A stretch of 64,000 nt of DNA from Coffea arabica. Its lineage: Eukaryota > Streptophyta > Magnoliopsida > Gentianales > Rubiaceae. The notes below the pieces were generated by a model that searched no databases, was not told the DNA's origin, and saw only the letters and a program-made list of their open reading frames with translations. The DNA is taken from assembly GCF_036785885.1 (NCBI RefSeq), contig NC_092310.1, forward strand, positions 7,688,001-7,752,000, read 5' to 3'. Of the stretch, positions 26,561 to 51,470 are shown one piece after another; the stretch's first letter is position 1; every line of letters begins with the position of its first letter. Position numbers and translations under genes: made by a program.

Positions 26561-27214
26561 ATTCACCGGACTCTCAACCACCTATGAAGACCAAATCGAT
26601 TTGAGAATTGGCAATTGAGAGACTAGCTAATGTGTCTAATGATAAGATTGATAAGCTAGCTAATGCCATTACATAAAAATTTGGAAGAATTAAGGGGAGG
26701 ATAGACCAACTTGCAAACCTGCATAGGAATGTCGAAGTCCAACTTCGGCAAATAGCCGATGTTGTAAACAATAGGAACCAATAAGAGTTTCCTAGTACAA
26801 CTGAGATCAGTCCAAGAGAGCGTGTTAAAGCTATCACCCTATGTAATGGTAAGCAATTGAGTGATCCTCCGATCATTGAGCGAGATAAATAAAGTGAGAG
26901 GGAAGAAGAAGAGATAAGCGAGGAAGTAATAAGAAGATGTGCAGGGGATAGGGATAAAGGAAAAGAGATTGTGAGTGACTCTTCATCTTCTGAGACTATT
27001 TCTATTCCATCATAGGTACCATTTTCTGAGAGTTTAAGGCAATCAAGGACTAACAAAGAGCTTTAAAATTTTGTAAAGATTTTTAAACAATTACATATTT
27101 ATATTCGCTTTGTTGATGCTATTTTGTAGATTCCCTCCTTTGTAAAATTTATTAAGGAGATAATGACCAAAAACGAAAGTTGGAGAACTGTGAAACAATT
27201 GCATTAATGGAAAA

Positions 27215-28289: not shown

Positions 28290-29400
28290 AATGATGAATT
28301 GATTCCCTCAAAACCTGTGATTGGATGGAGAGTACGTGTAGATTATAGGAAGTTTAATGCTGACACAAGAAAGGACCACTTTTCATTACCTTTTTTTGAT
28401 CAAATTTTGGAGAGACTAGTTAGTTATGAATTTTATTATTTTCTTGATGATTTTTTAAGATATAACGAGATAGTTATTGCTCTCGAGAATTGAAAAAAGA
28501 CCTCATTCACATTTTCCTATGGCACAGTTGCTTTTAGGCAAATGCCTTTTGGATCTACAATACCCCCGCTATATTTCAATGTTGCATGATGGCAATTTTC
28601 TTGGATTATATTGAGAAAATTATGAAAATTTTTACAGATGACTTTTCCATTTTTGGATCTACTTTCGATCATTGTCTAAATAACTTGGATTTGATTTTGT
28701 AGAAATGTAAAAAGACAAATCTCATTCTAATTAGGAAAAGTATCATTTCATGGTTCGAGAAAGAATTGTCTTAGAACACAAAATTTTATCCATAGATATT
28801 GAGATGGATAAAACAAAGATCGAGGTGATTGAGAGGATGCATTCACCCAGCAATATTAAACGAATTTGAAACTTTCTTAGACATGCTGGTTTCTATCAAT
28901 GATTCATTGAGAATTTCTCCGAATTAGCTAAGCCTTCATGTGATTTACTTACTAAAGATGTTCCTTTTAATTTTAATGATAAATATTTGTGTGCATTTAA
29001 TAGATTAAAGAAGGAACTCACTTCTATGCCAATTATACCATTACCAAACTGGAGCTTGCCATTTGAGTTGATGTGTGATGTTAATGATTTCATAGTAGGA
29101 GCATATTTTGGACAAAAATGAAAAGAGAGATTGCATGTTATCTACTAGCAATATTAGTAGATTAGTTAATGAATTGCAACTCAATTATGTAATCACAAAA
29201 AAGAACTCTTGATGATTATATTTGCATTAGATAATATTAGGTCTTATTTAGTGGAATCTAAAATTATCATTTATATGGATCATGCAACTCTTAAATGCTT
29301 ATTGAGTAAGAAAGATGCAATACCTCAAGTAATTCATTGAATTTTATTATTGCAGGAATTTGACTTTGAGATCAAGAACAAGAAAGGATAGGAGAATTTA
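28290..29400 (+). pseudogene. Athila-like reverse transcriptase and RNase H remnant
   Basis: Reverse-transcriptase blocks in order: GWRVRVDYRKFNADTRKDHF with LPFFDQILERL (28299-28440), FRQMPFGST near 28530, and an active-site region reading IFTDDFSIFGSTFDHCLNNL near 28627-28690, where the usual x-x-D-D becomes FTDD. RNase H follows with LMIIFALDNIRSYLVESK and IIYMDHATLKCLLSKKDA (29210-29325). Many in-frame stops separate the pieces. Confidence 0.85.
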
Positions 29401-30574
29401 GTGGAAGACCATCCTTCGTGTTTTGAATATGTCCCACATGAAGATCAAATTCCTATCAAGGAAAAGTTTTCGGATAAATTTTTGTTAGTAGTACAAAAGT
29501 CACCTTGGTATGCCGATTTGATTAACTATGTAGTTAGTGAAGTCATTCCAAAGGATTTGAACAACCACCAAAGGAAGAAATTCCTTCATGATGCCAAGCA
29601 TTATCTTTGAGAGGAGCCATTTTTCTACAAACATTGTCCCGATGGCATGATAAGAAGGTTTGTGCTAGAAGAAGAGATACATGATATTTTATTGCATTGT
29701 CATAGCCTTGAAATGGGAGAACATTTTAGTACATCAAAAATAGTGGCGAAAGTATGACAATCAAGTTTTTATTGGCCAACTATATACCAAGATATTAGAA
29801 ATTTTATCAAATGTCATGAGTGTCAAAGAACTGACAATATTTCTAAGAGAAATGAAATGCCTTTAACTATTTTCATGAAAGTTGGATTATTTGATATGTG
29901 GAGTATAGATTTTATGGGATCTTTCCTAATTTCTGTAATAATAAGTACATTCTTATATCAGTTGATAATATATCAAAATAGGTGGAAGTTGTTGTATTGC
30001 CTACTAATGATGTTAAAGATATAATTAAATTCCTTAAAAGGAATATATTTTGTAGGTTTGAAATTCCAAAGACCATTAAAAGCCAAAAAAGGTAAACATT
30101 TTTTGTAATAAATCATTTGACACTTTATTGTTTAAATATGGTTGCAGGTACAAGATTTCACTTCCTTAGCACCTGCAAGCGAATGGCCAAGTGGAGTTCG
30201 CTAATCAGGAGTTCAAACTTATCTTAGAAAAATGATGACCAAGTTGAGGAAGAATTGGGCAAAAAACTAGATGATGCATTGTAGGACTATAGGATGGCAT
30301 TTAAGCATTTGTTGGGAATGTTGCCGTATTGACTAATTTATGAAAAGCATGCGATCTACCTATTGAGATTGAGCATAAAGCGGATTAGGCCATAAAGGCT
30401 ATTAGTATAGATTTTCATCTTACAGGTGAGAAGAGATTGTTTGAATCAAGTGAATTGAAAGAACTTTCGTCGACTTCGTGTAAGAATGCCAAAATATATA
30501 AGGAAAAGATGAAATTTTAGCATGACAGGCATCCTTCCTAAACAATTTGAGGTTGGACAAAAGGTATCATTGTA
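29401..30574 (+). pseudogene. Athila-like integrase remnant, interrupted by the tandem array
   Basis: An open linker (29401-29610) is followed by the HHCC zinc region (HDILLHCHSLEMGEHFSTSK then FIKCHECQR, 29685-29830). The start of the catalytic core is FDMWSIDFMGSF near 29890, and the C-terminal part ends in GQK-like sequence at about 30560. At 30574 the reading is cut by the inserted sequence and resumes at 46131 with VLLYNSRLRLF. A second copy of this region lies at 48714-49600. Confidence 0.85.
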
Positions 30575-32051
30575 GATACTATGATGATTATTCAATATAA
30601 TTATGTGAACATAAAGAACCATAAAACCTTAAACTTCTCCTCCCATTATATGCCATCTTTTTCCTTTCACATTTTTCCTTTCTTCATGACAGCTCATGTC
30701 ACCCTTCCAAAGAGTAATCATTTCCTCCCCTAAACCTAAGACCTCCAAACCCTAATTGTCCAATTCCCTCATCTCTACTGTTTTCGGTCCTCTTTTACTC
30801 TCCTACTTTGCTAATGTTTAGATTTACAGCCGGCATCTATTATAGGGTTCAAAAGGCTAATGTTGAAGAGTCGCTCCACCATTGCTTCTTTAGGAGCGAT
30901 TTCGTCGACCGAAAGATTCCCTGTACGTTCATCGATATTCCAGTTAAGGCTGATTTTGATGTGGCAGTCGAAGTTGCAATGAAAGGAGGAAGGTGTTTTT
31001 TCTGCGTGCTGGGTACAGCCGTGGAATGTGAGGATGAGAAGGAAAAATGCAGAATCATCATGGAGAGAATCAATCGTATCCTAGACTCGTACATTGCAGC
31101 CAAATGAGGGCGGATATATGATGCCTATAATGTGCTATTACCCGAGATTGCCGAAAAAATATGCGGAGTCTTAAATTGTTTTCAATGTTTAGATAAAAAA
31201 AAAAGATTGAACACGATGACGTAACTACTAAACACATTTATTTAATCAAGAAGAGGGAGGAGATTAGGCTTTTGCTCGTAAAATACCATCACAGAACCAT
31301 GGATAGAACAAGATGGAATGAGACGACGAGAACTAATGACAGCAGGTGCCTCCAGCGGATGTATGATTTTTTATTATCCATTAAATCGTTGTTAGCTGTC
31401 GAGTGTGATAATTTTTGCTTGCAGGAAAACTATGCTAATTACACAGATATTCCTCTAAAACAACACCAGTAATGGTTTCTCTAAATTACACAGATGTTTA
31501 GTCCTCCTTATTTCCATTTCTTAGACATTTTCAAGTTCATATAGTCAAAAAGGATACACTTAAAAGATATCAGGATGCAATCAACAATCCGATAGCCAAT
31601 TTGCCATCTATGGGAGAACCAAATTTTGAATTGGCAAGTCAATTGGGTGACGATTATCTGTTGATCATTTATGAAATAGTTGCACCTGAGGATATGAGAC
31701 TATGTAACCTTTTGTATGTTATTTTAACAATGGTCTTGTGTGATGGTTTGATTTTAGAATTAGAAAGAAGAATTAGAGTTGACATCCACGTTTTATTTTT
31801 AGAATATGGAGGAAGAATAAAAGTTGACTACCATGCTTTGATTTGAGAATTAGAAAGAAGAGTTGGAGTCGACCACTTTTCATATTTTATTTGACAAGTT
31901 AATTTTCTTAATCATTATTTGAACTAGTATTAATTTTTACTTTATGGATAGAGGTTCTTTGCTGAACATCAAATGGCCTCACTTCCTCACTACTGAAATA
32001 TAATAGTACTTGCTAGTAATTTTTTTTTTAAAAAAATGTGTTATTGTACAA
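30575..32051 (+). repeat. Array unit 1 (only unit with 5' leader; internally deleted)
   Basis: Contains a gene-like leader (30575-30807, pyrimidine-rich, with an AAACCCTAATTG telobox-like word) and a 99-codon frame from ATG 30808 to 31107. The frame begins MLMFRFTAGIYYRVQKANVE and contains VKADFDVAVEVAMKGGRCFF. About 290 bp that other units have between AACTATGCTAAT and AACACCAGTAA is missing at about 31440. Further frames are 31272-31472 and 31601-31846. The product is unknown; the protein-like composition suggests a once-coding transcript. Confidence 0.65.
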
Positions 32052-33225
32052 TTCATGCCTTAGATTATTTTTCAAACAAATTAAAATTTAGGTGTTCCCT
32101 ATTCCATCATCGATGTTCCAGTTAATGTTGATTTTGACGTGGCAGTCGAAGTTGCAATGAAAGGAGGAAGGTGCTTTTCGCGCATGCTGGGTACAGCCAA
32201 ATGAGGACGGATATGTGATGCCTATGATGTGCTATTTCCTGAGATTATTGAGAAAATACGAGAAATTTTAACTTCTTTTCAATGTTTGGATAAAAAAAGG
32301 ATTGAACACGATGACGTGAATGCTAAACATTTTTTTAATCAAGGAGTGGGAGGAGATTAGCCTTTACTCGTAAAATACTATCATAGAATCGTGGGTAGAA
32401 CAAGATGGAATGAGACGATGAGGGCCAATGACAGTATATGCCTCCAGCGGATGTTTAATTCTTTATTATTCACCAAGTTATTGTTAGCTGTCGAGCGTGA
32501 TGATTTTTGCTTGTAGAAAAACTATACTAATGAAGGAATGCACTATCATCTGTTCCTATTCAATCATGCAGAAAAACATGTTTTTCCAACTCATATTTGC
32601 TCACGATTGATGGTTAGACATCAATCAAGTCGGATACGTGTGTTGGATACGCGCTCAGTCAATCAAGGAGAATGGACCAAGGAGACTAAGTCTATATCCA
32701 TTTGTGGCGTAATTTTTGACCATCCAAAAGAGAAATGGAGGCAGAAATATATGCAATTAAAGGAAGAGTTAAACAAGAGGATAACGAGTGGAGAAAAGAA
32801 TGAAAAAAAGATGAAACAACATTAGTAACAGTTCCTCTAAATTACACAGATGCTTGGTCCTCCTTGTTTGCATTTTTTAGACATTTTCAAGTTCATATAA
32901 TCGAGGAGAATACATTTAAAAGATATATGGATGCAATCAATAATCCGGCAGCCAATTTTTCATTTATGGGAGAACTGAATTTTGAACTGGCAAGTCAATT
33001 GGGTGACGATTTTCTATTGACTATCTATGAAAGAGTTGGAGTTGACTGCTATTCATATTCTATTTGCCAAATCAATTTTCTCAATCTTTATTTGAACTAG
33101 TATTAATTTTTACTTTATAGATAGAGGTTCTTTACTGAACATCAAATGGCCACGCTTCCACACTACTGAAATATAATAGCACTTGCGAGTATTTTTTTTT
33201 TTTAAAAGAAGGTGTTATTGTGTCA
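32052..33225 (+). repeat. Array unit 2 (short, 1174 bp)
   Basis: Retains frames at 32538-32825 (contains KEKWRQKYMQLKEELNKRI, predicted coiled coil) and 32864-33100. It lacks the segment that in other units runs from the VAPEDMRLCSLL-coding region through most of the minisatellite, which explains the short length. Confidence 0.8.
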
Positions 33226-34746
33226 TTCACGCCTTAGATTATTTTTCAGACAAACTAAAATTTAAGTGTTCTTTATTCCATCATCGATGTTCCAGTTAAA
33301 GTTGATTTTGATATGGCGGTCGAAGTTGAAATGAAAGGAGAAAGGTATTTTTTGCGCGTGTACAGCCGTGGAATATGAGGATGAGAAGGAAAAATGAAGA
33401 ATCATCCCGGAGAGAATCAATCATGTCCTAGATTCGTACATTGCCGCCAAATAAGGGCGGATATATAACGCCTATGATGTGCTATTGCTTGAAATTGCCG
33501 AAAAAATACACGGACTCTTCACTTGTATTCAATGCTTGGATAAAAAAAAAATTGAACATGATAATGTGCCTACTAAACATTTTTTTAATCAAGAAGCGGG
33601 AGGAGGTTAGGCTTTTGCTCGTAAAATACTATCACAGAATCATGGGTAGAACAATATGGAATGAGACGGTGAGAGATAATGACAACATATGCATCCAGCA
33701 GATGTTTGATTCTTTATTATCCACTAAATGATTGTTAGCTGTCGAGTGTGATAATTTTTGCTTGCAGAAAAACTATGCTAATGAAGGAACGTACTATCAT
33801 CTGTTCCTATTCAATCATGCGGAGAGACAGGCTTTTCTAACCCATATCTGGTCACAATTGAAGATTAGGCTTCAATAAGATCGAATGAGTGTATTGAATA
33901 CGCGTTCAAACTATCAGGGAGAATGGACCGAGGAGATTAAGTCTAAATCCATTTGTGGCGTAATCTTTGACTAATCGAAAGAGAAGTGGAGGCAAAAATA
34001 TATGCAACTAAAGGAAAAGTTAAACAAGAGGATAACAAGCGGAGGGAAGAAGGGAAAAATGATAAAACAATACCAGTAACAGTTCCTCTAAATTACACAG
34101 ATGCTCAGTCCTTTTTAATTGCATTTCTTCGGCATTTTCAATTTCATATAGTCGAGGAGGATACGCTTAAAAGATATCAAGGTACAATCAACAATCCAGC
34201 AGCCAATTTGTCATCTATGGGAGAATCGAATTTTGAATTGGCAAGTCAATTGGGTGACGATTATCTGTTGACCATCTATGAAACAGTTGCACTTGAGGAT
34301 ATGAGACTATGTAGCCTTTTGTATGTTATTTTAACAGTGGTCACGTGTGATGTTTTGATTTTAGAATTAGAATGAAGAATTAGAGTTGACTTTCACATTT
34401 TATTTTTAGAATAAGGAGGAAGAATTAAAGTTGACTACTATGTTTTGATTTTAGAATTAGAAGAAAGAATTAGAGTTGACTTTCACGTTTTATTTTTAGA
34501 ATAAGGAGGAAGAATTAGTTGACTACCATATTTTAATTTTAGAATTAGAAGGAAGAGTTGGAGTTGACTGCTCTTCATATTCTATTTTCCAAGTTAGTTT
34601 TCTCAATTTTTATTTGAACTAATATTAATTTTTACTTTATAGATAGAGGTTCTTTGCTGAGCATAAAATGGCCTCACATCCTCGCTACTGAAATATAATA
34701 GTATTTGCATATATTTTTGTTTTAAAAAAAAAGTGTTAATGTACAA
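33226..34746 (+). repeat. Array unit 3 (long, 1521 bp)
   Basis: Open frames at 33441-33731 and 33986-34375 (129 codons, containing NNPAANLSSMGESNFELASQ). The extra length is accounted for by two additional copies of the 45-bp minisatellite (five instead of three). Confidence 0.8.
34360..34572 (+). repeat. 45-bp minisatellite in array unit 3
   Basis: GTTGAC recurs at 34385, 34430, 34475, 34518 and 34563 within copies of a TTTTAGAATTAGAAGGAAGA-like repeat. Most other units have three copies. Confidence 0.85.
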
Positions 34747-36179
34747 TTCACGCCTTAGATTATTTTTCAGATAAACTAAAATTTTGATGTTCCCAGTTCC
34801 GCCATTGATGTTTCAATTACGGCTGATTTTGATGTGGCAGTCAAAATTACAATAAAAGGATAAAGGTGTTTTTTACACGTACTGGGTACAGCCGTGGAAT
34901 GTGAGGGTGGGAAGAAAAAACACAGAATCATTACAAAAAGAATCAATCGTGTCCTATACTCATACATTACTCCAAACGAGGGCAGATATATGACGCCTAT
35001 GATGCGCTATTGCCCGAGATTACAATGAAAATAGATGAAGTCTTAAATTGTTTTCAATATTTGGATAAAAAAAAGATTGAACACGATGACGTAATTGCTA
35101 AACATTTTTTTAATCAAGAAGAGGGAGGAGGTTAGGCTTTTGCACGTAAAATACTATCATAGAACCATGTGAAGAACAAGATGGAATGAGACGGTGAGGG
35201 CTAATGACAGGATATGCCTCTAGCGGATGTTTGGTTCTTCATTATCCACTAAATCATTGTTAGCTGTCGAGTGTAATAATTTTTACTTGCAGAAAAATTA
35301 TGCTAATGAATGAATGCACTATCATCTGTTCCTATTCATTTATGTAGAGAGACAAGCTTTTCTAACCCATATCTGCTCACAATTAATGGTTAGACCTCAA
35401 TCGAATCGGATGCGTGCGTTGGATATGCGCTCAACCTATCATGGAGAATGGACCAGGTAGATTAAGTCCAAATCCATTCGTGGCGTAATCTTCGACTATT
35501 CAAAAGGGAAGTGGAAGCAGAAATATATGCAACTAAAGGAAAAGTTAAACAAGAGGATGACAAGCAAGGGGAGAATGGAAAAAGGATAAAACAACATCAG
35601 TAGCGGTTCCTCTAAATTACACAGATGATCAGTCTTTCTTATTTGCATTTTTTAGATATTTTCAATTTCATATAATCGAGTAGGATACGCTTAAAAGATA
35701 TTAGGATGCAATCAACAATTTGGCAGTCAATTTGCCATATACGGGAGAATCGAATTTTGAATCGACAAGTCAATTGGATGACGATTATCTATTGATAATC
35801 TATAAATTAGTTGCACCTGAGGATATGAGACAATGTAGCCTCTTACATGTTATTTTAAAAGTGGTCTCGTGTGATGGTTTGATTTTAGAATTAGAAGGAA
35901 GAATTAGAGTTGACTTCCACGTTTTGTTTTTAGAATGAGGAAGAATTAAAGTTAACTACCATGTTTTGATTTTAGAATTAGAAGGAAGAGTTGGAGTTGA
36001 CTGCTATTCATATTCTATTTGCCAAGTTAATTTTCTCAATCTTTATTTGAACTAATATTAATTTTTATTTTATGGATAGATGTTCTTTGCTGAACATCAA
36101 ATGGCCTCATTTCCTCACTACTAAAATATAATAGTAGTTGTTAGTATTTTTATTTAAAAAAAAAGATGTTATTGTACAA
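34747..36179 (+). repeat. Array unit 4
   Basis: 1433 bp; first member of the central subfamily marked by TTTTAAAAGTGGTCTCGTG. Coding is heavily decayed; the longest piece, 35720-35938, matches the C-terminal frame of other units. Confidence 0.8.
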
Positions 36180-37609
36180 TTCACGCCTTAGATTATTTTT
36201 CAGACAAACTAAAATTTAGATGTTCCCTGTTCCACCATTGATGTTTCAGTTACGACTGATTTTGATGTGACAGTCGAAATTACAATAAAAGGAGAAAGGG
36301 TTTTTTGCACGTACTGGGTGCAGTCGTGGAATGTGAGGGTGGGAATGAAAAATATATAATGATCATAGAGAGAATCAATCGTATCCTACACTCATACATT
36401 GCTCCAAACGAGGGTGGATATATGATGTCTATGATGCGCTATTACTCAAGATTACAGAGAAAATACGCGAAGACTTAACTTGTTTTAAATATTTCGATAA
36501 AAAAAATTAAACACGATGACGTAATTGCTAAACATTTTTTTAATCAAGAAGTGGGAAGAGATTAGGCTTTTGCCCATAAAATACTATCACAGAATCATGG
36601 GTAGAACAAGATAAAATGAAACGGTGAGAACTAATGATAGCATATGCCTCAAGCGGATGTTTGATTATTTATCATCGACTAAGTCATTGTTAGCTGTCGA
36701 GTGTGATAATATTTACTTGCAGAAAAATTATGCTAATGAAGGAACACACTATCATATGTTCCTATTCATTTATGTAGAGAGACAGGCTTTTCTAACCCAT
36801 ATCTGCTCATGATTGATGGTTAGACCTCAATCGGTTCGGATGCGTGCGTTGGATACGCGCTCAACCTATCAGGGAGAATGGACCAAAGAAATTAGGTCTT
36901 AATCTATTCGTGGCGTAATCTTTGACTATCCAAAAGAGAGTTGGAGGCCAAAATATATACAACTAAAGGAAAAATTAAACAAGAGGATAACGAGCGAGGG
37001 AAGAATGGAAAAAGAATAAAACAACACCAGTAGCGGTTCATCTAAATTACACATATGTTCGGTCCTCCTTATTTGCATTTATTAGATATTTTCAAATTAA
37101 TATAGTCGATGAGGTACGCTTAAAAGATATCAGGATGCAATCAACAATCCCGCAGCCAATTTGCCATCTATTGGAGAACCGAATTTTGAATCGGCAAGTC
37201 AATTGGGTGACGTTATCTGTTGACAATCTATGAAATAGTTGCATTAGAGGATATGAGACTATGTAACCTCTTGAATGTTATTTTAAAAGTGGTCTCGTGT
37301 GATGGTTTGATTTTAGAATTAGAAGGAAGAATTAGAGTTGACTTCCACGTTTTGTTTTTAGAATAAGGAGGAAGAATTAAAGTTGACTACCATGTTTTGA
37401 TTTTAGAATTAGAAGAAAGGGTAGGAGTTGACTGGTATTCATATTCTATTTGCCAAGTTAATTTTCTCAATCTTTATTTGAACTAATATTAATTTTTACT
37501 TTATGGATAGAGGTTCTTTGCTGAGCATCAAATGGCCTCACTTCCTCACTACTAAAATATAATAGTACTTGTTAGTATTTTTATTTTTAAAAAAGGTATT
37601 GTTGTACAA
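36180..37609 (+). repeat. Array unit 5
   Basis: 1430 bp, central subfamily. The only notable open piece is 36624-36812. Confidence 0.8.
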
Positions 37610-39029
37610 TTCACGCCTTAGATTATTTTTCAGACAAACTAAAATTTTGGTGTTCCTTGTTCCACAATCGATATTTCAGTTAAGGATGATTTTGATGTGG
37701 CAATCGAAATTACAATAAAAGGAAAAAGGATTTTTGCGAGTACTGGGTACAGCCATGGAATGTGAGGGTGGGAAGGAAAAATACTGAATCACGACGAAGA
37801 GAATGAATCGTATCCTATACTCGTACATTACTCCAAACGAGGGCGGATATATGATACCAATAATGCACTATTGCCCGAGATTACAGTGAAAATACGCGGA
37901 GTCTTAAATTGTTTTCAATATTCGGATAAAAAAAAAGATTGAACACGATAACGTGATTGCTTAATCAAGAAGCGAGAGGAGGTTGGACTTTTGCCCACAA
38001 AATACTATCACAGAATCATGGGTAGAACAAGATGGAATCAGACGGTGAGAGCTAATGACAGCATATGCCTCCAGCGGATGTTTGATTCTTTATTATCCAC
38101 TAAATCATTGTTAGTTGTCGAGTGTAATAATTTTTGCTTGCAGAAAAATTATGCTAATGAAGGAATGCACTATCATCTGTTCCTATTCATTTAGGTAGAG
38201 AGACGGGCTTTTCTAACCCATATCTGCTCACGATTGATGGTTAGGCCTCAATCGGTTCGGATGTGTGTGTTGCATACGCGCTCAACGTATCAGGGTGAAT
38301 GGACCAAGGAAATTAAGTGTTAATCCATTCATGGCGTAATCTTTGACTATCCAAAAGAGAAGTGGAGGCCGAAATATATGCAACTAAAGAAAAAGTTAAA
38401 CAAGAGGATAACGAGCGAGGGAAGAATGGAAAAAAGATAAAACAACACTAGTAACGGTTCTTCTAAATTACACATACGTTCAGTCCTCCTTATTTGCATT
38501 TCTTAGATATTTTCAAGTTCATATAGTCGAGGAGGTACGCTTAAAAGATATCAAGATGCAATCAACAATCCGGCAGCCAATTTGCCATCTATTAGAGAAC
38601 CGAATTTTGAATCGCAAGTCAATTGGGTGATGTTATATGTTGACAATCTATGAAATAGTTGCATTAGAGGATATGAGACTATGTAGCCTCTTGAATGTTA
38701 TTTTAAAAGTGGTCTCGTGTGATGGTTTGATTTTAGAATTAGAAGCAAGAATTAGAGTTGACTTCCACGTTTTGTTTTTAGAATAAGGAGGAAGAATTAA
38801 AGTTGACTACCATGTTTTGATTTTAGAATTAGAAGGAAGAGTTGGAGTTGACTGCTATTCATATTCTATTTGTCAAGTTAATTTTCTAAATCTTTATTTG
38901 AACTAATATTAATTTTTACTTTATGGATAGATGTTCTTTGCTAAACATCAAATGGCCTCATTTCCTCATTACTAAAATATAATAGTACTTGTTAGTATTT
39001 TTATTTTAAAAAACGACGTTATTGTACAA
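37610..39029 (+). repeat. Array unit 6
   Basis: 1420 bp, central subfamily. Open piece 37991-38194, with a small deletion around 37960 relative to its neighbours. Confidence 0.8.
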
Positions 39030-40463
39030 TTCACGCCTTAGATTATTTTTCAGATAAACTAAAATTTAGGTGTTACCTGTTCCACAATCGATGTTTCAGT
39101 TACGACTGATTTTAATGTGGCAGTCGAAATTACAATAAAAGGAGAAAAGGGTTTTTTGCACGTACTGGGTGCAGTCGTGGAATGTGAGGGTGGAAATGAA
39201 AAATACAGAATCATCACGGAGAGACTCAATCGTATCCTACACTCATATATTGCTCCAAACGAGGGCGGATATATGATGTCTATTGTGCGCTATTACCCGA
39301 GATTACAGTGAAAATACGCGAAGTCTTAACTTGTTTTCAATATTTGGATAAAAAAAAAGTTGAACACGATGACGTAATTGCTAAACATTTTTTTAATCGA
39401 GAAGCGGAAGGAAGTTAGACTTTTGTCCGCAAGATACTATCACAGAATCATGGGTAGAACAAGATGGAATGAGACGGTGAGAGCTAATGATAGCATATGC
39501 CTCAAGCGGATTTTTTATTCTTTATCATCGATTAAATCATTGTTGGCTATCAAGTGTGATAATTTTTACTTGCATAAAAACTATGCTAATGAAGGAACGC
39601 ACTATCATCTGTTCCTATTCAATTATGTTCAGAGATAGGTTTTTCTAACCCATATCTGCTCACGATTGATGGTTAGGCCTCAATTGGTTTGGATGCGTGT
39701 GTTGGATACGCGCTCAACCTATCAGGGAGAAAAGACCAAGGAAATTAAATCTAAATCCATTCATAGCGTAATCTTTGATTATCCGAAAGAGAAGTGGAGG
39801 CAGAAATATATGCAACTAAAGGAAAAGTTAAACAAGAGGATAACGAGCGAGGGAAGAATGAAAAAAAGATAAAAGAACACCAGTAACAGTTCCTCTAAAT
39901 TACACATATGTTCGATTCTCTTTATTTTCATTTCTTAGACATTTTCAAATTCATATAGTCGAGCAGGATACGCTTAAAAGATATCAGGATGCAGTCAACA
40001 ATTCGGCAGCTAATTTGCCATCTATGGGAGTACTGAATTTTGAATCGGCAAGTCAATTGGGTGACGATTATCTGTTGATAATCTATAAAATAGTTGCACC
40101 TAAATATATGAGACTATGTAGCCTCTTGAATGTTATTTTAAAAGTGGTTTCGTGTGATGCTTTGATTTTAGAATTAGAAACAAGAATTAGAGTTGACTTC
40201 CACATTTTGTTTTTAGAATAAGGAGGAAGAATTAAAGTTGACTACCATGTTTTGATTTTAGAATTAGAAGGAAGAGTTGGAGTTGACTGCTATTCATATT
40301 CTATTTGCCAAGTTAATTTTCTCAATTTTTATTTGAACTAATATTAATTTTTACTTTATGGATAGATGTTCTTTGCTGAACATCAAATGGTCTCATTTTC
40401 TCACTATTAAAATATAATAATACTTGTTAGTATTTTTATTTAAAAAAAGGTGTTATTGTACAA
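39030..40463 (+). repeat. Array unit 7 (best-preserved run of frames)
   Basis: 1434 bp, central subfamily. Four consecutive plus-strand pieces (39117-39311, 39378-39638, 39666-39872, 40015-40221) cover most of the presumed coding region, separated by a few stops and frameshifts. Confidence 0.8.
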
Positions 40464-41896
40464 TTCACGCCTTAGATTATTTTTCAGATAAACTAAAATT
40501 TAGGTGTTCCCTGTTCCACAGTCGATGTTTTAGTTACGGTTGATTTTGATGTGGCGGTCGAAATTGCAATAAAAGAAGAGCTGAATTTTTGTGCGTACTG
40601 GGTGCAGCCATGAAATGTAAGGTGGGAATGAAAAATACAAAATCATCACAGGAGAGAATCAATCGTATTCTATACTCGTACATTGCTCCAAACGAGGGTG
40701 GATATATAATGCCTATGATGCACTATTACCCGAGATTACATAGAAAATACGTGAAACTTTAACTTCTTTTAAATAATTGGATAAAAAAAAGATTGAACAC
40801 GATTATGTGACCACTAAATATTTTTTTAATCATGGAGCAGGAGGAGGTTAGGATTTTACTCGTAAAATACTATTACAAAATCATGGGTAAAATAAGATGG
40901 AATAAGACAGTGAGGGCTAACGACAGCATATGCCTCCAGTGAATGTTTGATTCTTTATCATCGATTAAGTCATTGTTGGCTGTCAAGTGTGATAATTTTT
41001 ACTTTCAAAAAAACTATGGTAATGAAGGAACGCACTATCATCTATTCCTATTCAATTATGTAGAGAGACAGGCTTTTCTAACTATATCTGCTCACGATTG
41101 ATGGTTAGGCCTCAATCGGTTCGGATGCGTGTGTTGGATACGCGCTCAACCTATCAGGGAGAATGGACCAAGGAAATTAAGTCTAAATTCATTCATGGCG
41201 TAATCTTTGATTATCCGAAAGAGAAGTGGAGACAGAAATATATGCAACTAAAGGAAAAGTTAAACAAGAGGATAACGAACGAGGGAAGAATGGAAAAAGG
41301 ATTAAACAACACCAGTAACGGTTCCCCTAAATTACACATATGTTCAATTCTCTCTATTTGCATTTCTTAGACATTTTCAAATTCATATAGTCGAGGAGGA
41401 TACGCTTAAAAGATATCAGGATGCAATCAACAATTCGGCAGCTAATTTGCCATCTATGGGAGAATTGAATTTTGAATCGGCAAGTCAATTGGGTAACGAT
41501 TATCTATTGACAATCTATGAAATAGTTGCACCTGAGGATATGAGACTATGTAGCCTCTTGTATGTTATTTTAAAAGTGGTCTCGTGTGATGGTTTGATTT
41601 GAGAATTTGAAGGAAGAATTAGAGTTGACTTCCACGTTTTATTTTTAGAATAAGGAGGAAGAATTAAAGTTGACTACCATGTTTTGATTTTAGAATTAGA
41701 AGGAAGAGTTGGAGTTGACTGCTATTCATATTCTATTTGCCAAGTTAATTTTCTCAATTTTTATTTGAACTAATATTTATTTTTACTTTATGGATAGATG
41801 TTCTTCGCTGAAAATCAAATGGCCTCATTTGCTCACTACTAAAATATAATAGTACTTGTTACTATTTTTATTTTAAGAAAAGGTATTATTGTACAA
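40464..41896 (+). repeat. Array unit 8
   Basis: 1433 bp, last unit of the central subfamily. Open piece 41098-41370. Confidence 0.8.
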
Positions 41897-43304
41897 TTCA
41901 TGCCTTATATTATTTTTTACACAAACTAAAATATAGGTGTTCCCTGTTCCATCATCGATGTTTCAATTACGGCTGATTTTGATGTGGCAGTCGAAATTGC
42001 AACAAAAGGAGAGCTGGATTTTTTGTGCATACTAGGTGCAGCAATGGAATGTGAGTGTGGGAATGAAAAATACAGAATCATCACAGGAGAAAATCAATCG
42101 TATCCTATACTCGTACATTGCTCCAAACGAGGGTGGATATATGATGCCTATGATGCACTATTGCCCGAAATTACATAGAAAATACGCAAAGTCTTAACTT
42201 CTTTTAAATAATTGGATAAAAAAAAAAGATTGAACACGATTACATGACTACTAAATATTTTTTTAATCAAGGAACGGGAGGAGGTTAGGATTTTACTCGT
42301 AAAATACTATTACAAAATCATGGATAAAATAAGATGGAATAAGACAGTGATGGCTAATGACAGCATATGCCTCCAGCGGATGTTTGATTCTTTATTATCC
42401 ACCAAGTGATTGTTAGCTGTCGAGTGTGATAATTTTTGTTTGCATTATCATTTGTTCCTATTCAATCACGCAGAGAGAAAGACTTTTCCAACCCATACCT
42501 GCTCACGATTGATAGTTAGGTCTCAATCGGGTCGGATGCATGTGTTGGATACACGCTCTGCCTATCAGGAAGAATGGACCAAGGAGATTAAATTTAAATC
42601 CATTTGTGGCATAATGTTTGACTATCTGAAAGAGAAGTGGAGGCAGAAGTATATGCAACTAATGGAACAGTTAAACAAGAGAATAACAAGTGGAGGAAAT
42701 AACGGAAAAAAGATAAAACAACACCAGTAACGGTTCCTCTAAATTACACAGATGCTCGGTCCTCCTTATTTACATTTTTTAGACATTTTCAATTTCATAT
42801 AGTTGAGGAGGATACGCTTAAAAGATATTAGGATGCAATTAACAATTCGGCAGTCAATTTGCCATCTATGAGAGAACTGAATCTTGAATTGGCAAGTCAA
42901 TTGGGTAACGATTATCTGTTGACCATCTATGAAATAGTTGCATATGAGAATATGAAACTCTGTAGACTCTTGTATTTTATTTTAACAGTGGTCTCGTGTG
43001 ATGTTTTGATTTTAGAATTAGAACGAAGAATTAGAGTTGACTTTCACATTTTGTTTTTAGAATAAGAAGGAAGAATTAAAGTTGACAACCATGTTTTGAT
43101 TTAAGAATTAGAAGGAAGAGTTGGAGTTGAATGCTCTTCATATTCTATTTGCCAAGTTAATTTTCTCAATCTTTATTTAAACTAGTATTAATTTTTACTT
43201 TATGGATTGAGGTTCTTTGCTAAACAGCAAATGGTCTCGCTTCCTCACTGTTGAAATATAATAGTACTTGTTAGTATTTAAAAAAAAAAAGTGTTATTCT
43301 GCAA
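41897..43304 (+). repeat. Array unit 9 (chimeric between subfamilies)
   Basis: 1408 bp. Its 5' half resembles units 7-8 (GAGCTGGATTTTTTG-type sequence, AAACGAGGGTGGATATATGA). Its 3' half carries the TTTTAACAGTGGTCTCGTG marker of the outer subfamily. Open pieces are 41984-42178, 42410-42730 and 42859-43065. Confidence 0.75.
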
Positions 43305-44716
43305 TTCACGTCTTAGATTATTTTTCAGACAAACTAAAATTTAGGTGCTTCCTGTTCCGTCATCAATGTTCCAGTTAAGGTTGATTTTGATATGGCGATC
43401 GAAGTTGCAATGAAAGGAAGAAGGTATTTTTTACGCATGCTTGGTACAGCCATGAAATGTGAGTACGGGATGGAATAATCCAGAATCATTATGGAGAGAA
43501 TTAATCGTGTCATAAACTCATACATTGCAACCAAATGAGGGCGGATATATGATGCCTATGATGTGCTATTTCCCAAAATTGCCGAGAAAATACACGGAGT
43601 CTTAACTTGTTTTCAATGCTTGGATAAGAAAAAAGATTGAATACGATGATGTGACTGCCAAACATTAGAGGGAGGAGGTTAGGCTTTTGCTCATGAAATA
43701 CTATCACAGAATCATGGGTAGAACAAGATGGAATGAGACGGTGAGGGCTAATGACAGTATATGCTTTCAGCGGATGTTTGATTCTTTATTATCTGCTAAG
43801 TCATTGTTAGCTGTCGAGTGTGATGATTTTTAGTTGCAGAAAAGCTATGCTAATGAAGGAATGCACTATCATCTGTTCCTATTCGATCATGCAGAGAGAT
43901 AGGCTTTTTCAACCCATATATGCTAACGATTGATACTTAGGTCTCAATCGGGTCGGATGCGCGTGTTAGATACACGCTCGGCCTATTAAGGAGAATGGAC
44001 CAAGGAGATTAAATCTAAATCCATTGGTAGCGTACTTTTTGACTATCTGAAAGAGAAGTGGAGGCAGAAATATATGCAACTAAAGGAACAGTTAAACAAG
44101 AGAAAAACGAGTGGAGGAAAGATTAGAAAAAGATAAAAGAACACTTAATGGTTCCACTAAATTGCACAGATGGTCTTCCTTATTTGCATTTCTTAGACAT
44201 TTTCGAATTCATATAGTCGAGGTGGATACGCTTAAAAGATATCAGGGTGCAATCAACAATCCGGCAGCCAATTTATCATCTATGGGAGAACTGAATTTTG
44301 AATTGGCAAGTCAATTGGGTGACGATTATCTGTCGACGATCTATGAAATAGTTGCATCTGAGGATATGAGACTCTGTAGGCTCCTGTATGTTATTTTAAC
44401 AGTGGTCTCATGTGATGTTTTGATTTTTGAATTAAAAGGAAGAATTAGAGTTGACTTCCACATTTTGTTTTTAGAATAAGGAGAAAGAATTAAAGTTGAC
44501 TACTATGTTTTTATTTTAGAATTAGAAGAAAGAGTTGGCTGCTCTTCATATTCTATTTGCCAACTCAATTTTCTCAATTTTTATTTGAATTAGTATTAAT
44601 TTTTACTTTATTGATAGTGATTCTTTGCTTAACATCAAATGGCCTCGCTTCCTCACTACTAAAATATAATAATACTTGTTAGTATTTCTTTTCTAAAAAA
44701 AAGTGTTATTATATAA
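43305..44716 (+). repeat. Array unit 10
   Basis: 1412 bp, outer subfamily. It has one of the longest surviving C-terminal frames, 44111-44479 (122 codons), containing FRIHIVEVDTLKRYQGAINN. Confidence 0.8.
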
Positions 44717-46149
44717 TTCACACCTTAGATTATTTTTAAGACAAACTAAAATTTAGGTGTTCCTTGTTCCATCATCGATGTACCAGTTAAGGTTGATTTT
44801 GATGTGGTAGTCAAAGTTGCAATGAAAGGAGAAAGATATTTTTTGCGTGTGCTGGGTACAACCGTGAAACATGGGAATGGTAAGGAAAAAATACAGAATC
44901 ATCGCGGTGAGAATCAATCGTATCCTAGAATCGTGCATCACAACCAATGAGGGCGGATATATGATGCCCATGATGTGCTATTGCCCGAGATTGTCGAGAA
45001 AATACTTTAACTTGTTTTCAATGCTTGGATTAAAATAAGATTGAGCACGATGATATGACTGCTAAACATTTTTTTAATCAAGGAGTGGGATGAGGTTAGG
45101 TTTTTGCTCGTAAAATAATATCACAAAATCATGGGTAGAACAAGATGGAATGAGATGGTGAGTGCTAATGATAGTATATGTCTCCAATGGATGTTTGATT
45201 CTTTATTATCTACTAAGTCAATGTTAGCTATCGAGTGTGATGATTTTTGCTTGCAGAAAAGCTATGCTAATGAAGGAATGCACTATCATCTGTTCCTATT
45301 TAATCATGTAGAGAGGCAGGCTCTTCCAACCAATATATGCTTATGATTGGATGGTTCAGCCTCAATCAGGTCAAATGCATGTGTTGGATACGCGCTCAAA
45401 CTATCAGGGAAAATGGACTAAGGAGATTAAATTTAAGTTCATTTGTGGCATAATCTTTGACTATCAAAAAGAGAAGTGGAGGCAGAAATATATGCAACTA
45501 AAGGAAGAGTTAAACAAAAAAGATAACGAGTGGAGGGAAGAATGGAAAAAAGATAAACAACACCAGTAACGGTTCCTCGAAATTACACAGATTTTCAGTC
45601 CTCCTTATTTGCATTTCTTAGACATTTTCAAGTTCATATAGTCGAGAAGGATACGCTTAAAATATATCAGGATGCAATCAACAATCCGGCAGCCAATTTG
45701 CCATCTATGGGAGAACTGAATTTTGAATTGACAAGTCAATTGGATGACAATTATCTGTCGGCCATCTATGAAATAGTTACATCTGAGGATGTGAGACTCT
45801 GTAGCCTCTTGTATGTTATTTTAACAGTGGCCTCGTTTGAAGTTTTGATTTTAGAATTAGAAAGAAGAATTAGAGTTGACTTTCACATTTTGTTTCAGAA
45901 TAAGCAGAAAGAATTAAAGTTAATTACTATGTGTTGATTTTAGAATTAAAAGGAAGAGTTGGACTTGACTGCTTTTCATATTCTATTTGTCAAGTTAATT
46001 TTCTCAATCTTTATTTGAACTGGTATTAATTTTTACTTTATGGATAGAGATTTTTTGGTGAACATCAAATGGCCTCGCTTCCTCACTACTGAAATATAAT
46101 AGTACTTGCTAGTATTTTTTTTTAAAAAAAAAAAGGTGTTATTGTACAA
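44717..46149 (+). repeat. Array unit 11
   Basis: 1433 bp, outer subfamily. Open pieces 45131-45346, 45351-45569 and 45698-45937. It ends in T9 followed by about 12 A, directly before the integrase sequence resumes. Confidence 0.8.
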
Positions 46150-46398
46150 TTCACGCCTTAGATTATTTTTCAGACAAACTAAAATTTAGATATTCCAGTC
46201 CATTTGAGTTGACAAGTCTATTTTTCTATGGAGCGATAGAGATAACAAATGGTAAAAATGATTCTTTTAAGGTGAATGGGTAGTACTTAAAGACTTATTT
46301 AAACAAGTGAAATAGCCCCAAATGTGGTAGTTTAGTCAGGGCATTCTTCTTTTCATTAAGATGAATAGTGAAAAGTTCAATTTAATGACTTTAAACAA
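46131..46398 (+). pseudogene. Integrase C-terminus and 3' pol remnant after the array
   Basis: Reads VLLYNSRLRLF, then SPFELTSLFFYGAIEITNGK and SFKVNG, the standard C-terminal end of gypsy integrases (KVLLYNSRLKLFPGKL ... FKVNGxRLK). This shows that 30574 and 46131 were once adjacent. It stops at 46398 where a MULE end begins. Confidence 0.8.
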
Positions 46399-48712
46399 GA
46401 GATAATTTCAAAAACCTCCCCTGAGATTTCTGACTATTTCAGTTACCTCCCCTAAGGGTTTCAAAATTACACTAGCCTCTCCTGGTAAAATTTTGAGTCT
46501 ACTTCCTTACATCACATAAAATGAATTTACTACTATACCCACAAGATTTTGAAGTATCAAAAGACTAATATATAACAATTAGTACTTACGGCACAATTAA
46601 ATTATCTAGACTTGATTAACTATCAAAACTACCATTAAAATGCTCCTAATAGCTATTAGACAAATGGCACCAGCTGCTTATCTATTGTAGAACCAATTCT
46701 ACACCAATTTGACGCCATTTATTGAGTGAAATTAGTGACAAACATATTAAATCAATACATGATTGTAAAATAAGAAGAAGGCATTTCATCCAAGAAAGAA
46801 AATTAAGAAAGAATACAAGAGAGAATGAAGATTGAAAAACACAGCACCTAATTTCATAATTGTGATGGTATTTATTTTGACTTTGCAAGAGAAAGAAAGG
46901 AGTATAAAAAGCAACATTTGATATTTTTCTGCTGTAAATTACAACAAGGCACATAATACAGGTAAGCAATTTTTGTTGTCTCAATCTAATATAAGAAAGT
47001 CAACATAAGTTCCACACCATGAAAATTTGTAAGTTGATGATAAGAAGTTAAACCAACATGTGAAAACTATTGACTTAGCTAACTTATAAACAGCAAAGAA
47101 TAAAAAAAATGATCATCTATTTTAATGAGTGATGGTGTTGTATGATCTGATGATATGTAGAAAATATAGTTAGTTGCAGAGTTATGGTACTTGGGTATAA
47201 ATTTGGTTCTATATGTGGATGGATGATGACCTTTTCTATCAATGTTAAACAATACAATTATGTACATCATGTGTGTTTATAACAGGAGTTATTTGATAGA
47301 CTCATTGATCAGAAGAATATATAAATAATTTTAGCGTATGTGAGAGACATAAGTTGTTTGTAATTAATATTGATTTGTAAATCTGTGTTGTGTATTTATT
47401 ATTGGTTTGTTGAGTAAAATTGCATGCATATGGCAGAATTTTGACATATACTTGTTGGTAATTAACAATTATTGTGAATAACGTAAGATGGTCATTGGTG
47501 CTTATGACATAGTTGTGCACTACAAGGGAAACACAGTCAGGATCCCTAATATTGATCCTAATAAATACTTATACATTAATTTGCTATATGATGTAATTGA
47601 AAAAGTATTGAGAGAAATGCCAGAAAATGTGAATATGATGACACATACAAGGCATGAAATTTCTGGTGAAGATAGAATGTGTGATGTTAATGATGATAAT
47701 GCAGTTGTCAAGATGTTCAAAATGTATCAATTTGGAATTGTAATCAATTTACATGTATATGACATGAAAATTATTTCAACTAAATATGGTAATACCAATG
47801 TTAATAAAAATGTTCAAAGCACTCAAGAGAATTTAGACCTTGATCAGACTTCTAAAAGGATAGCTACTAACTTTGAAATATCTAATGATAAATATGAAGA
47901 TTCTGGTTTTGATGATTCATAAAAACATACATTTGACAATGACAATAAGATTGATATAGATAATAATATGGTGTTAGTGGATGGTAGTGAATCAAGCAAT
48001 GTCATTTTTTCGAGTTTTGGAGAAAATGAAGATGGTGAGATTGTTCTTGATTCTAAATTTGATCAAGAACCTCACCCTATGATAGAAGTGATGAGATAAA
48101 AAATGTGGATTTACAACCATAGAGATGATATAAAGTTTGAAAAAGGCCAATTCTTCACTAATGTGGATTCGTTTAGAGTAGTCTTAAAAGATTATATAAT
48201 TCAAAAATGATTTCCAATATCTAGTTTGAAGAATGAGAAAACTAAAGTGATTGCCATTTATGATGTTGATGGTTGCAAATGGAGGATTCATGCATTACTA
48301 GTGGCTGATTCCATCATTATTATGCTTAAATCCTACCAACTTGAACACACTTTTATGATGGATAGGAGTAATGTTGAGGCTACATCCGACTAGATTGCAA
48401 AGAAACTCATTCCTTTGATGAGAGATCATCTTAACATATCTAATGAAAGGATAGAAATTAAGATGGAAAAGTATGATGTTAGACCAAATTACATGCAGCA
48501 TTTTAGAGCAAAGAAAGAAAGCAGAAGAAGAGATTCAAGGAAACTTCAACGACTTCTACAACAAATCACCAAAATATGCTGAGCTTCTAAGACAACATAA
48601 TCCATCTAGTATTTATAAAATACATTACAATAGTCCAAATGTCCTAGTTGAGCCTAGATTTCTGAGATTATTTGTTGGTTTCATAGCACAAAAAATTAGT
48701 TTGCTTGATAGT
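46399..48712 (+). mobile_element. 5' portion of a second, unrelated MULE
   Basis: Starts GAGATAATTTCAAAAACC with repeated CCTCCCCTGAG and CCTCCCCTAAGG words, the look of a known type of plant MULE TIR. It breaks the Athila 3' pol sequence exactly there, as the duplicate at 49560-49590 shows. It carries a transposase N-terminal half. No right TIR is present: at about 48712 the sequence switches into Athila integrase. The leader 46500-47487 has no other gene. Confidence 0.6.
47488..48712 (+). pseudogene. MULE transposase N-terminal half, truncated
   Basis: A 144-codon open N-terminal piece (47488-47922, starting MVIGAYDIVVHYKGNTVRIP) is followed by the DNA-binding domain with stops (GCKWRIHALLVADS, SYQLEHTFMMDRSN, IAKKLIPLMRDHLNISNERI, 48270-48450). 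After a frameshift near 48510, 48473-48715 reads YNKSPKYAELLRQHNPSS and VEPRFLRLFVGFIAQK, which leads into the catalytic domain in intact MULEs. The catalytic core is absent. It is clearly different from the transposase at 12-15 kb. Confidence 0.75.
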
Positions 48713-48713
48713 T

Positions 48714-49795
48714 GATAATATATACATTCTTGTAGCAGTTGATTACATGTCAAAATAGGTAAAAGCTATTGTATTGCCTATTAATGATGCTAAATTTGTA
48801 ATTAAATTCCTTAAAAGGAATATATTTTGTAGGTTTGAAATTCCAAAGACCATTAAAAGCCAAAAAAGGTAAACATTTTTTGTAATAAATCATTTGACAC
48901 TTTATTGTTTAAATATGGTTGCAGGTACAAGATTTCACTTCCTTATCACCAGCAAGCGAATGGCCAAACGAAGTTCGCTAATCGGGAACTCAAACTCATC
49001 AGAGAAAATAGTGAACAAGTCGATGAAGGATTGGGTGATAAATTAGATGATACATTATGAGATTATAGGACGGATTTAAGACTCTATTGAGAATGTCACC
49101 TTATCGGCTAATTTATTGAAAAGTATGCCATCTACTTGTTGAGCTTGAGCATAAAGCAAATTAGACTATGAAAGCTAATAATATGGATTTTCGTCCTGCA
49201 GGTGAGAAGAGATTGCTTGAATTGGAGGAATTTCGTTTGACTTTGTATGAGAATGCCAAGATGATATATAAGGAAAATGTAAAGTTTCAGCATGATAGGC
49301 ATCCTTCATAAATAATTTGAGATTGGACAAAAGGTGTTATTGTATAATTTGTGTCTTAAATTATTTTCTAGACCAACTAAAATCTCGGCACTCTAATCCA
49401 TTTGAGCTGACAAGAGTACTTTCCTATGAAACGGTAGAAATAACAAATGGTAAAAATGAATCTTTTAAGGTGAATGGGTAGCGTTTAAAGACTTATTTAA
49501 CTTAGGAGTATTTCACTCAGGGGATTCTTCTCTTCATTAAAATAAATGGTGAAAAGTCCAGTTTAACGACTATAAACAAAGAACTAGTTGGGAGACAACC
49601 TAACCATTTAATGTTATTTCTAGTGTTTAGTATGCTTCTTGTATTTCTTAAGTTAATATACGTCTTTATGTATTTTGTAGATCACAGCATCAAAAAGGTC
49701 ATGGACATGGTCAAAATTGGATTTTTCCTCTTGGACAAGACATTAACAGAGTTTTATACTTATACTTTGTATTTTAGATATTTTTTTAAGGAGAA
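48714..49795 (+). pseudogene. Second copy of Athila integrase, with uninterrupted insertion site
   Basis: 48760-49345 closely repeats 29975-30574, including a long near-identical block around ATTAAATTCCTTAAAAGGAA. It then continues straight through GGACAAAAGGTGTTATTGTA (49325-49344) into the integrase C-terminus (TCCATTTGAGCTGACAAG, AATGGTAAAAATGAATCTTT), the same sequence found after the array at 46131. It is the unoccupied version of the array's target. 49600-49795 is probably 3' non-coding Athila sequence. Confidence 0.82.
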
Positions 49796-51465
49796 ATAAT
49801 ATTTTTTATTACCATAAAATTAAACAAGTACAAGAACTAATGGCCAAAATCTAACGTCAGCCGAAACAAAACTATCCTGGAGACAATATCATACGAACCA
49901 ATGGCAAACCTTGCGAATCTAGAATAAGATGAGCACGAACTAGAGAAGGCAACTACTGCATATGATCAAAAATTAACTCACCAGATGTCCTAATAGCTGC
50001 TAATCTATTTGAAGAGGAATTGACCTCCCAAAAATATGCCGTATAGAAGTTGAGAATCATGAATTAGTCTTCTAATCTTTCTCAACAGGTTACATAAAAG
50101 CCATTTAGCAAGTGATTTTGAGCCAAGCTACCAAACTAAAATTTGAGAATCTATTTCAATAAGTGCTAGACACACCCTTTTTAGTTGGCAGAGTTGAAGA
50201 CCAAATAACGACAAGCTTTCTGCCATCAAAATATCACACTCCCCAAATTCTTTATAATACGTGAAAACCAACTTCCTCTGATGATCGTGCATCAAACCTC
50301 TCCCTAATGCCTTGCTATGGCTAACTCGAGCATCTGAATTAAGTTTCAATGAACCATGAGGTGGTTTTTCTCAGACTACCACACAACATGATAACTTCTT
50401 TGGATTTGACAAAACATATCGCACCAAATAACAATCCGAATCACCTATAAAGTAGGAGCTGCTTAATCGTCCAGAAATTCCAAACTATTCGAATAATCGA
50501 TCAACCTGCCATACTATGTTGTCCATGCCCCAACTTACATTTCAAAAATGGCTGTGATTACTTACTAATCATAAAAACCAATAGACCACTACCGATATGA
50601 AAACATGAATATGATCCTTTGATGATATGAGATTTGAGAAAATCAAGGGACAAACAATGCTTTCAAGCTCGTGCACCTATGTAACAAAAATCCGAATCTG
50701 CTCAAGAATACTTCCTTTGCAACTGGCCCCTCTAAAAAACAAGGCAAAGTTGTTTCCTCCGTAGCATGACAACAATCACAAATGGAAGGAATGCTTAGGC
50801 CTCGTGAACGTAAAGTAACATCCAGTGGAAGAAAATTATGCACCAAACGCCATGTAAAAATGATAACTTCAGTGGTAGAATCGGGTTCTAAAACAGAGAA
50901 TCCACAAGGGATATCCTCCTTTGCCGCAATAGTTCCCATGCCAATTTCACCGAAAAAAGACCAATTTGTGACAGAAATCATATCATTCTATCAGCCTGAT
51001 CATGTTGAAAAAAAAAAACTCTTGGATAGCCCGTACCACATGAACCGGTACCCACTGTAAAAGACGTTGCTCATTCCAGGCCTCTCCTGAAAAGAACTCA
51101 ACCACCAAAAAATGTGGTGACTCAGATCTATCCAAAATGGAACACAGTGGCTCATCAAATAATCATCTATCTCTCCAAAAATTCACCAATCCCTCTCCCA
51201 ACGACCATCTAATATTCTGCTCCACCAAGTGTTGCATCTCCTCCAAGTGCCTCCATAACACTGTAGGGCAAGGGAAGGAGATTGAGACTGCATGAAGACC
51301 TTTTATGTATTTTTCATGCATAAAGTCAGCCCAAACAGACTCCTTAAACAGGAGCTTTCACCAAAACTTGCACGCAAATGCTTGAGACATATTCTCAAAT
51401 GGCTGAAAGCCTAGACCACCCTCCTTATCCCAAGATGACCTCTTTAATCTTGATATGAGGAAAAT
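49796..51465 (-). pseudogene. 5'-truncated L1-type LINE, minus strand
   Basis: Minus-strand pieces in LINE order: sequence like KEGGLGFQPFENMSQAFACK at the 5' break (about 51440-51370), the RT zinc-binding domain (50981-50643: TWRLVHNFLPLDVTLRSRG, SICDCCHATEETTLPCF), then an RNase H-like piece (50349-50128: KLNSDARVSHSKALGRGLMH). The 3' end is a poly(T) stretch on the plus strand (49798-49809). The reverse-transcriptase core and endonuclease are missing. Confidence 0.78.
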
Positions 51466-51470
51466 ATGGT

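Follow-up and report, generated by a model that had tools for sequence, protein, structure and literature searches.

Tandem arrays that were born from retrotransposons, and tandem arrays whose unit contains a retrogene, are both known, and here we compare them with a locus of Coffea arabica in which 11 units of about 1.43 kb lie inside the interrupted integrase region of a Ty3/gypsy-type retrotransposon. The window, as we call the whole stretch of 64,000 nucleotides that was analysed (C1:7688001-7752000), belongs to a 1.198-Gb genome; C1, C2, C11 and similar names designate contigs of that assembly, the only one analysed, on sequence-level evidence. We consider it very probable that the locus arose by the insertion of a retrocopy, a single founding duplication, exchange between neighbouring units and silent decay.

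In Lathyrus sativus, satellites originated from tandem repeats within long terminal repeat (LTR) retrotransposons (PMC7004042); the coffee array also lies inside a plant LTR retrotransposon and grew in place, whereas the Lathyrus source consisted of short arrays native to dispersed elements and, in coffee, most of the monomer derives from an insertion into the element, at a single locus. An origin from "TE graveyards" (accumulations of transposable element, TE, remnants) has been proposed for composite satellites whose monomers combine short pieces of several TEs (PMC12628747), a process which shares with the coffee locus the nested insertion, the decay and the tandemisation of a stretch with pieces of insert and host element, and which differs in that the coffee insert looks like an mRNA copy and that the pre-amplification state and the breakpoint are preserved. 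The human D4Z4/DUX4 macrosatellite is likewise a gene-sized tandem unit containing a retrogene; its 3.3-kb unit is GC-rich with an open frame encoding DUX4 (PMC12376486), whereas the coffee unit has 1.43 kb, is AT-rich, has broken frames and belongs to a plant. The equid LCORL retrocopies (17-35 copies) were also amplified after insertion, but they are expressed and segmentally duplicated, and a surrounding retrotransposon is not mentioned in the available portion of that paper (PMC10249811).

In Coffea arabica itself, gypsy-derived tandem arrays with units of more than 2 kb extend up to several hundred kb, and Tandem Repeats Finder (TRF) is reported to have shown no tandem regions whose units are shorter than 2 kb (PMC10805892); these arrays are retrotransposon-derived like ours, which differs from them in its 1.43-kb unit. 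Running TRF on the window with periods up to 500 detected only 45-bp subrepeats in the array, which indicates that an old 1.43-kb array may escape such scans. An earlier reading of this DNA, hereafter the original prediction, had held that no family of this sort was described, a claim weaker than it was stated since retrotransposon-born arrays and retrogene-unit arrays are both known. A plant array with an mRNA retrocopy as monomer inside a retrotransposon was not found among titles and abstract openings in the open PMC literature, the subscription literature lying mostly outside that scope. Each step of the history is of a known kind, and what is unusual is the completeness of the preserved intermediates.

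Architecture of the array

Self-comparison of the window gave dominant offsets of 1432, 1420, 1435, 2851, 2867 and 4283 bp, and the first 70 bp of the right flank are present 11 times between 32033 and 46200, which cuts the array region (30575-46196) into 11 direct units arranged head to tail on the forward strand. Before the first unit stands a 342-bp head (30575-30916), absent from all other array units and present in three copies on C2. U01 (30917-32098, 1182 bp; recognised by self-comparison and the flank marker) has an internal deletion near 31440 and U02 (32099-33273, 1175 bp) a deletion near 33038, so that both measure about 1.18 kb, while U03 (33274-34793, 1520 bp) carries extra 45-bp subrepeats at 34350-34569. 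The remaining eight units are 1408-1434 bp long and were delimited by the flank marker: U04 (34794-36226, 1433 bp), U05 (36227-37656, 1430 bp), U06 (37657-39076, 1420 bp), U07 (39077-40510, 1434 bp), U08 (40511-41943, 1433 bp), U09 (41944-43351, 1408 bp), U10 (43352-44763, 1412 bp) and U11 (44764-46196, 1433 bp). Every unit closes with about 66 bp of integrase-region sequence, and in U11 these final 66 bp (46131-46196) double as the start of the right flank. Over all 55 pairs the units are 83.2-90.7% identical.

TRF, in its run on the window, found 45-bp subrepeats near the unit end in 9 of the 11 units, in 2.6-4.9 copies (34350-34569 being an example); they are a second tier of tandem growth. 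Rfam gave no match in 30500-46300 at E<=0.01.

The insertion site and the host element

The left part of the interrupted integrase region is degenerate and occupies 29506-30574 on the forward strand, and the right part, with the integrase end and downstream sequence, occupies 46131-48037 on the same strand. The two halves (29938-30574 and 46131-46302) align at 83-84% to one uninterrupted stretch at 48715-49500, where they correspond to 48715-49344 and 49329-49500 and overlap by 16 bp, with no bases missing between them. This second copy of the integrase region (48715-49579, forward strand) is insert-free and represents a paralogous empty site, not an allele. The 16 overlapping bases form a target-site duplication, AAAAGGTATCATTGTA on the left (30559-30574) and AAAAGGTGTTATTGTA on the right (46131-46146), of which 14 positions are equal; none of 20000 random pairs of 16-mers from both flanks matched as well. 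Its length falls in the range of about 7-20 bp of retrocopies made by long interspersed nuclear elements (LINEs).

Three of eight scanned pieces had Pfam matches above the cut-off (RT_RNaseH_2 in 28903-29118, RT_RNaseH in 29173-29337 and Integrase_H2C2 in 29758-30021) and the other five were without hit; these domains indicate that the host element is of the Ty3/gypsy type. The narrower label Athila, suggested by a resemblance of the integrase end, is not established, and the Pfam domains give just the Ty3/gypsy type.

These data bear on what had been predicted from the letters of the window. The array does lie between two halves of one integrase end, at the place indicated (30575-46130) and with 11 units, each including integrase-derived sequence. 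The spacing, described as regular, is so only from U04 onward; the integrase-derived piece measures about 66 bp instead of about 60 bp; and the last unit extends to 46196, with the head preceding the first.

One founding duplication and probable growth between neighbours

All ten internal junctions, compared by eye, have the sequence ...TTTAGGTGTTCC|CTGTTCCATC..., intact or with mutations, in which the right flank up to TTCC passes into the insert from TTCC onward, so that the breakpoint carries a 4-bp TTCC microhomology. One common breakpoint in ten of ten junctions indicates that a single tandem duplication founded the array. In the tree, the array units are monophyletic with respect to the C2 copies, with a bootstrap of 100.

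Neighbouring units have a mean Kimura two-parameter (K2P) distance of 0.137, and none of 10000 random orders gave neighbours as alike; the most similar block is U04-U08 (mean K2P 0.116). From this similarity of neighbours we infer growth by exchange or duplication of adjacent units.

Single-unit copies on C2

At C2:8200-8223 kb there are three copies of the insertion, each with head, one body and matching integrase flanks, copy b being without about 200 bp of body; nothing of the tandem unit structure was seen in them. The window at 29506-31439, that is, the left flank together with the start of the insert, runs unbroken into copy a (7205-5256 of the joined C2 stretch) at 84.7%, and 45868-47794 likewise continues without break into C2 copies at about 84.7%; together with 46507-48037, the latter aligns to the C2 stretch at 84.7-85.0%. 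The continuity of flanks and insert indicates that the insertion was copied together with its host element, and the C2 copies sit within larger duplications on that contig. The single-unit copies represent the state before amplification.

We also looked for a homeologous locus on C2. The probes 25500-27000 and 3300-5200 proved to be repeats, and the probe 7600-8600 had no match above 74% elsewhere, except for short 76-bp pieces at 82%. The probe 50200-52200 has 12 copies on C2:8.447-8.718 Mb at 93-94%; for the 3 kb upstream of one of them, similarity to the window is limited to the part from 50321 onward and to 8423-8508.

Nature of the insert

The insert has the same direction as the integrase. 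An open frame at 30718-31104 holds an ATG (30814, picked by eye) with a 239-bp leader ahead of it, so that the head contains the leader and the start of the reading frame, and among the matches listed the full-length ones to 30575-31105 beyond the window are those of the three C2 copies. At the other end, seven A stand directly before the right target duplication in U11 (46124-46130), and the C2 junctions show A-runs of 5, 7 and 6; at two of the three junctions part of the run belongs to the duplication itself, and at one GG sets the run apart.

Where the insert is contiguous, a relative on C22 (L049, C22:51755564-51756760) is interrupted by two GT-AG introns, the first of which is also present in a relative on C12 (L053; splice sites by eye). 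Part of P0003, a public gene model of Coffea arabica, is by eye identical to the C22 relative, and the model joins across the second intron likewise; it also includes a fused transposase domain and bears the name HARBI1. The intron-bearing relatives are about 23-38% identical to the insert in protein over stretches of at least 45 residues. With the 16-bp target-site duplication, the short 3' A-run and the absence of introns where the C22 relative has two, there is a strong case for retroposition of a spliced mRNA as the most likely origin of the insert.

Two further relatives of the insert protein, on C17 (L050, C17:4578001-4588000, at 3707-4270 on the minus strand) and on C18 (L051, C18:1787001-1794000), are without the first intron. 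The C17 relative adjoins copia-type reverse transcriptase/RNase H frames (by eye), as though a second kind of retroelement had captured sequence of this gene family.

C11 and C12 hold insert fragments of about 300 bp in a different context (4147-4447 of L037 and 4170-4460 of L038), which are 96% identical to each other over 1.6 kb and constitute a separate partial relative. The C11 fragment ends in an A-run where the insert itself is A-rich, and this piece may have been retroposed after priming inside the message.

The insert pieces matched no Pfam family above the cut-off, and neither did the relatives, apart from the transposase part of P0003; the PDB searches revealed no relative of the insert protein, with three chance-level hits (E 0.38-0.62). 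A virus origin was rejected, with no relative of the insert in viral contigs (two pieces) and no match in the phage collection (one piece). An IRE1/RNase L-like parent protein, an idea prompted by motifs, was unsupported by the PDB searches, the profile comparison and the structure model: the PDB profile search with the insert protein listed no kinase; hhalign against IRE1 pieces of the same genome scored 14.6, equalled or exceeded by 12 of 60 column shuffles, a weak negative as both profiles are shallow; and the structure model had a mean predicted local distance difference test (pLDDT) of 37.5, too poor for a fold search.

Proposed history and alternatives

According to the history that we propose, the reverse transcript of a spliced mRNA from a host gene family would have entered the C-terminal part of the integrase gene of a Ty3/gypsy-type retrotransposon, probably with the help of LINE machinery and with formation of the 16-bp target-site duplication. 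The interrupted element would then have been copied by larger duplications, giving the three single-unit C2 copies. In the C1 lineage, a TTCC located 66 bp beyond the insertion would have been joined to a TTCC about 342 bp inside the insert, creating a two-unit array whose founding unit consisted of the retrocopy plus 66 bp of target, and unequal exchange between adjacent units may have raised the number to 11, after which the units would have diverged and decayed as silent DNA. A single insertion duplicated with its flank and then expanded by exchange is also what the original prediction had supposed, and it is favoured by the common breakpoint in ten of ten junctions, the single-unit C2 copies, the monophyly of the array and the similarity of neighbours. 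We suggest, tentatively, that the locus represents a plant "mRNA-to-macrosatellite" route with all its stages in one genome (empty integrase, three single copies and an 11-unit array from one duplication with 4-bp microhomology), predating the subgenome split of the tetraploid.

Several observations weigh against this history. The A-run is short, with seven A past the duplication in U11, and the 5-7 A of the C2 junctions belong in part to the duplication itself. The parent gene was not found in genome searches, whose listed matches were the array, the C2 copies, the C11/C12 fragments and distant relatives only, and intron loss was therefore judged on distant relatives; the parent gene may be lost, and its absence lowers the case for a copy of a named gene more than that for the retrocopy mechanism. 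The C11/C12 fragments show that pieces of the insert sequence have also moved by other routes, and the K2P of 0.226 between C2 copies and array makes the former old relatives, not fresh controls. As for the growth of the array, support within its tree is 15-85, too low to put the duplications in order, and similarity does not fall steadily with distance, since K2P is highest (0.179) for units six apart and lies at 0.160-0.166 for those separated by 8-10 units (3, 2 and 1 pairs).

The alternative that survives best, which we nevertheless regard as unlikely, is that the insert is the coding part of an undescribed retroelement and not a copy of a host mRNA. The missing parent gene, the lack of Pfam families in insert and relatives (the transposase part of P0003 excepted) and the copia-type frames adjoining the C17 relative would agree with it, but the intron-bearing C22 and C12 relatives look like genes, and the viral contigs and phage collection held no relative of the pieces searched.

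Less probable still is that the insert is a DNA transposon or a Helitron and that the array grew by rolling-circle amplification or by repeated insertion at one site. Target duplications of 16 bp do not fit Helitrons or the common elements with terminal inverted repeats, and by eye no such repeat is seen at the ends of the insert (no program was run for them). The introns of the C22 relative are missing from the insert, and all four full-length insert copies found share one target site. Helitron arrays and double insertions are among the ways in which satellites have been described to arise (PMC12628747); in the coffee array, however, the ends of the units do not coincide with those of the insert, as 10 of 11 units are without the 342-bp head and all 11 extend about 66 bp past the insertion into target sequence, so that a Helitron array, with units bounded by element termini and no target duplication, is not what is found.

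Under the retrocopy history, the locus has a wider meaning. Births of satellites are usually reconstructed without intermediates, whereas here the array can be set base by base against the single insertion and the paralogous empty site, and this comparison gives the order of the steps. A single duplication of microhomology size can be enough to make a gene-sized tandem array out of a one-off retrocopy and a small piece of its target. For annotation, the locus is a warning that retrocopy arrays in dead retrotransposons can resemble local gene clusters.

Age and decay of the units

Mean K2P distances are 0.158 for units of the array, 0.181 for the C2 copies compared with one another and 0.226 for array against C2 copies. 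Differences of 4-8% separate the flank copies of C1 and C2 and also the two members of the C11/C12 pair, and paired contigs are about 95% identical. If the flank copies and the C11/C12 pair are homeologous and rates are equal, the array would predate the subgenome split; methylation-driven decay could exaggerate its age. When changes were polarised by the majority base, 426 of 794 were G>A or C>T, an excess of which methylation is the probable cause.

The variation at codon positions 1/2/3 was 0.164/0.119/0.106 for the last coding part, 0.153/0.123/0.156 for the middle part and 0.232/0.157/0.174 for the first part; the C-lobe part (0.138/0.143/0.186) was the only one with a clear third-position excess. 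In-frame stops occur in 7 of the 11 units in the last coding part (the frame of 33971-34372) and in 7 of the 11 in the C-lobe part. Ten units have an open frame of 98-135 amino acids in the last coding part, and six are stop-free within the 69-residue match, which is what drift alone predicts, as 36-54% of such stretches are expected to be stop-free at 6-10% divergence with no constraint. It is thus very unlikely that the array is a live tandem gene family with units still coding for protein: the ten open frames, the six stop-free matches and the slight third-position excess of the C-lobe part speak for it, and are outweighed by that expectation, by the stops and by the first, middle and last parts, which do not share the pattern of the C-lobe part. 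The units look unconstrained and decay without detectable coding constraint; we read the array as dead, probably methylated and silent DNA.

Distribution in the genome and public records

Copy counts are given among the matches listed, and the notion of a single locus rests on the searches with the coding part, the head and the C-lobe part; a search with the whole unit as DNA gave 10 matches from which the array itself was absent, and is therefore not exhaustive. With the last coding part as query, all 14 matches at E<=0.001 were the 11 units and the three C2 copies, and with the head and the start of the body, all 16 belonged to the array (11), to C2 (three) or to the fragments on C11 and C12. 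For the C-lobe part, the best 16 of 93 matches at E<=10 (E<=1.2e-5) were in the array or on C2, and the rest were nearly all weak and elsewhere. The search of the unit across the genome, which had been proposed as a check, thus gave one 11-unit array and three single C2 copies among the matches listed and no dispersed satellite; instead of many long or dispersed homogenised arrays, the units of this one array are 83-91% identical.

That the array is an artefact of assembly is hardly credible; nothing in the one assembly examined was found to favour it, the units differ by 9-17% and three public records from the European Nucleotide Archive (ENA) best match different units (P0004 the U02 frame at 91%, P0005 the U09 frame at 97.7% and P0006 U11 at 100% over 57 amino acids).

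Weak matches of the unit frame also led to other tandem arrays, at C3:59037478-59082801 (period of about 3005 bp), C3:59456750-59495500 (2795-3022 bp), and C7:26143427-26156769 and C7:26354694-26365195 (both about 2625 bp). At about 27% identity, with E from 3e-4 upward at related places, these matches to the 2.6-kb C7 and 3.0-kb C3 arrays were judged to be chance or at most very remote; the arrays may belong to the long gypsy-derived arrays known in C. arabica.

Other features of the window

Genes with a B3 domain (At2g31720-like; window 7689-8546) match at 15 places on C2 (8439915-8725317) and at 4 around the window on C1. Together with the 12 copies of the 1.3-kb flank (93-94%), this cluster is a segmental expansion on one contig. 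A direct repeat of 1.4 kb is found at 23843-25223 and 59894-61289, 36 kb apart and 82.5% identical, and Rfam identified the plant C/D small nucleolar RNA snoR71 on the minus strand at 25987-26093 (50.9 bits), in a stretch that is repeated throughout the genome.

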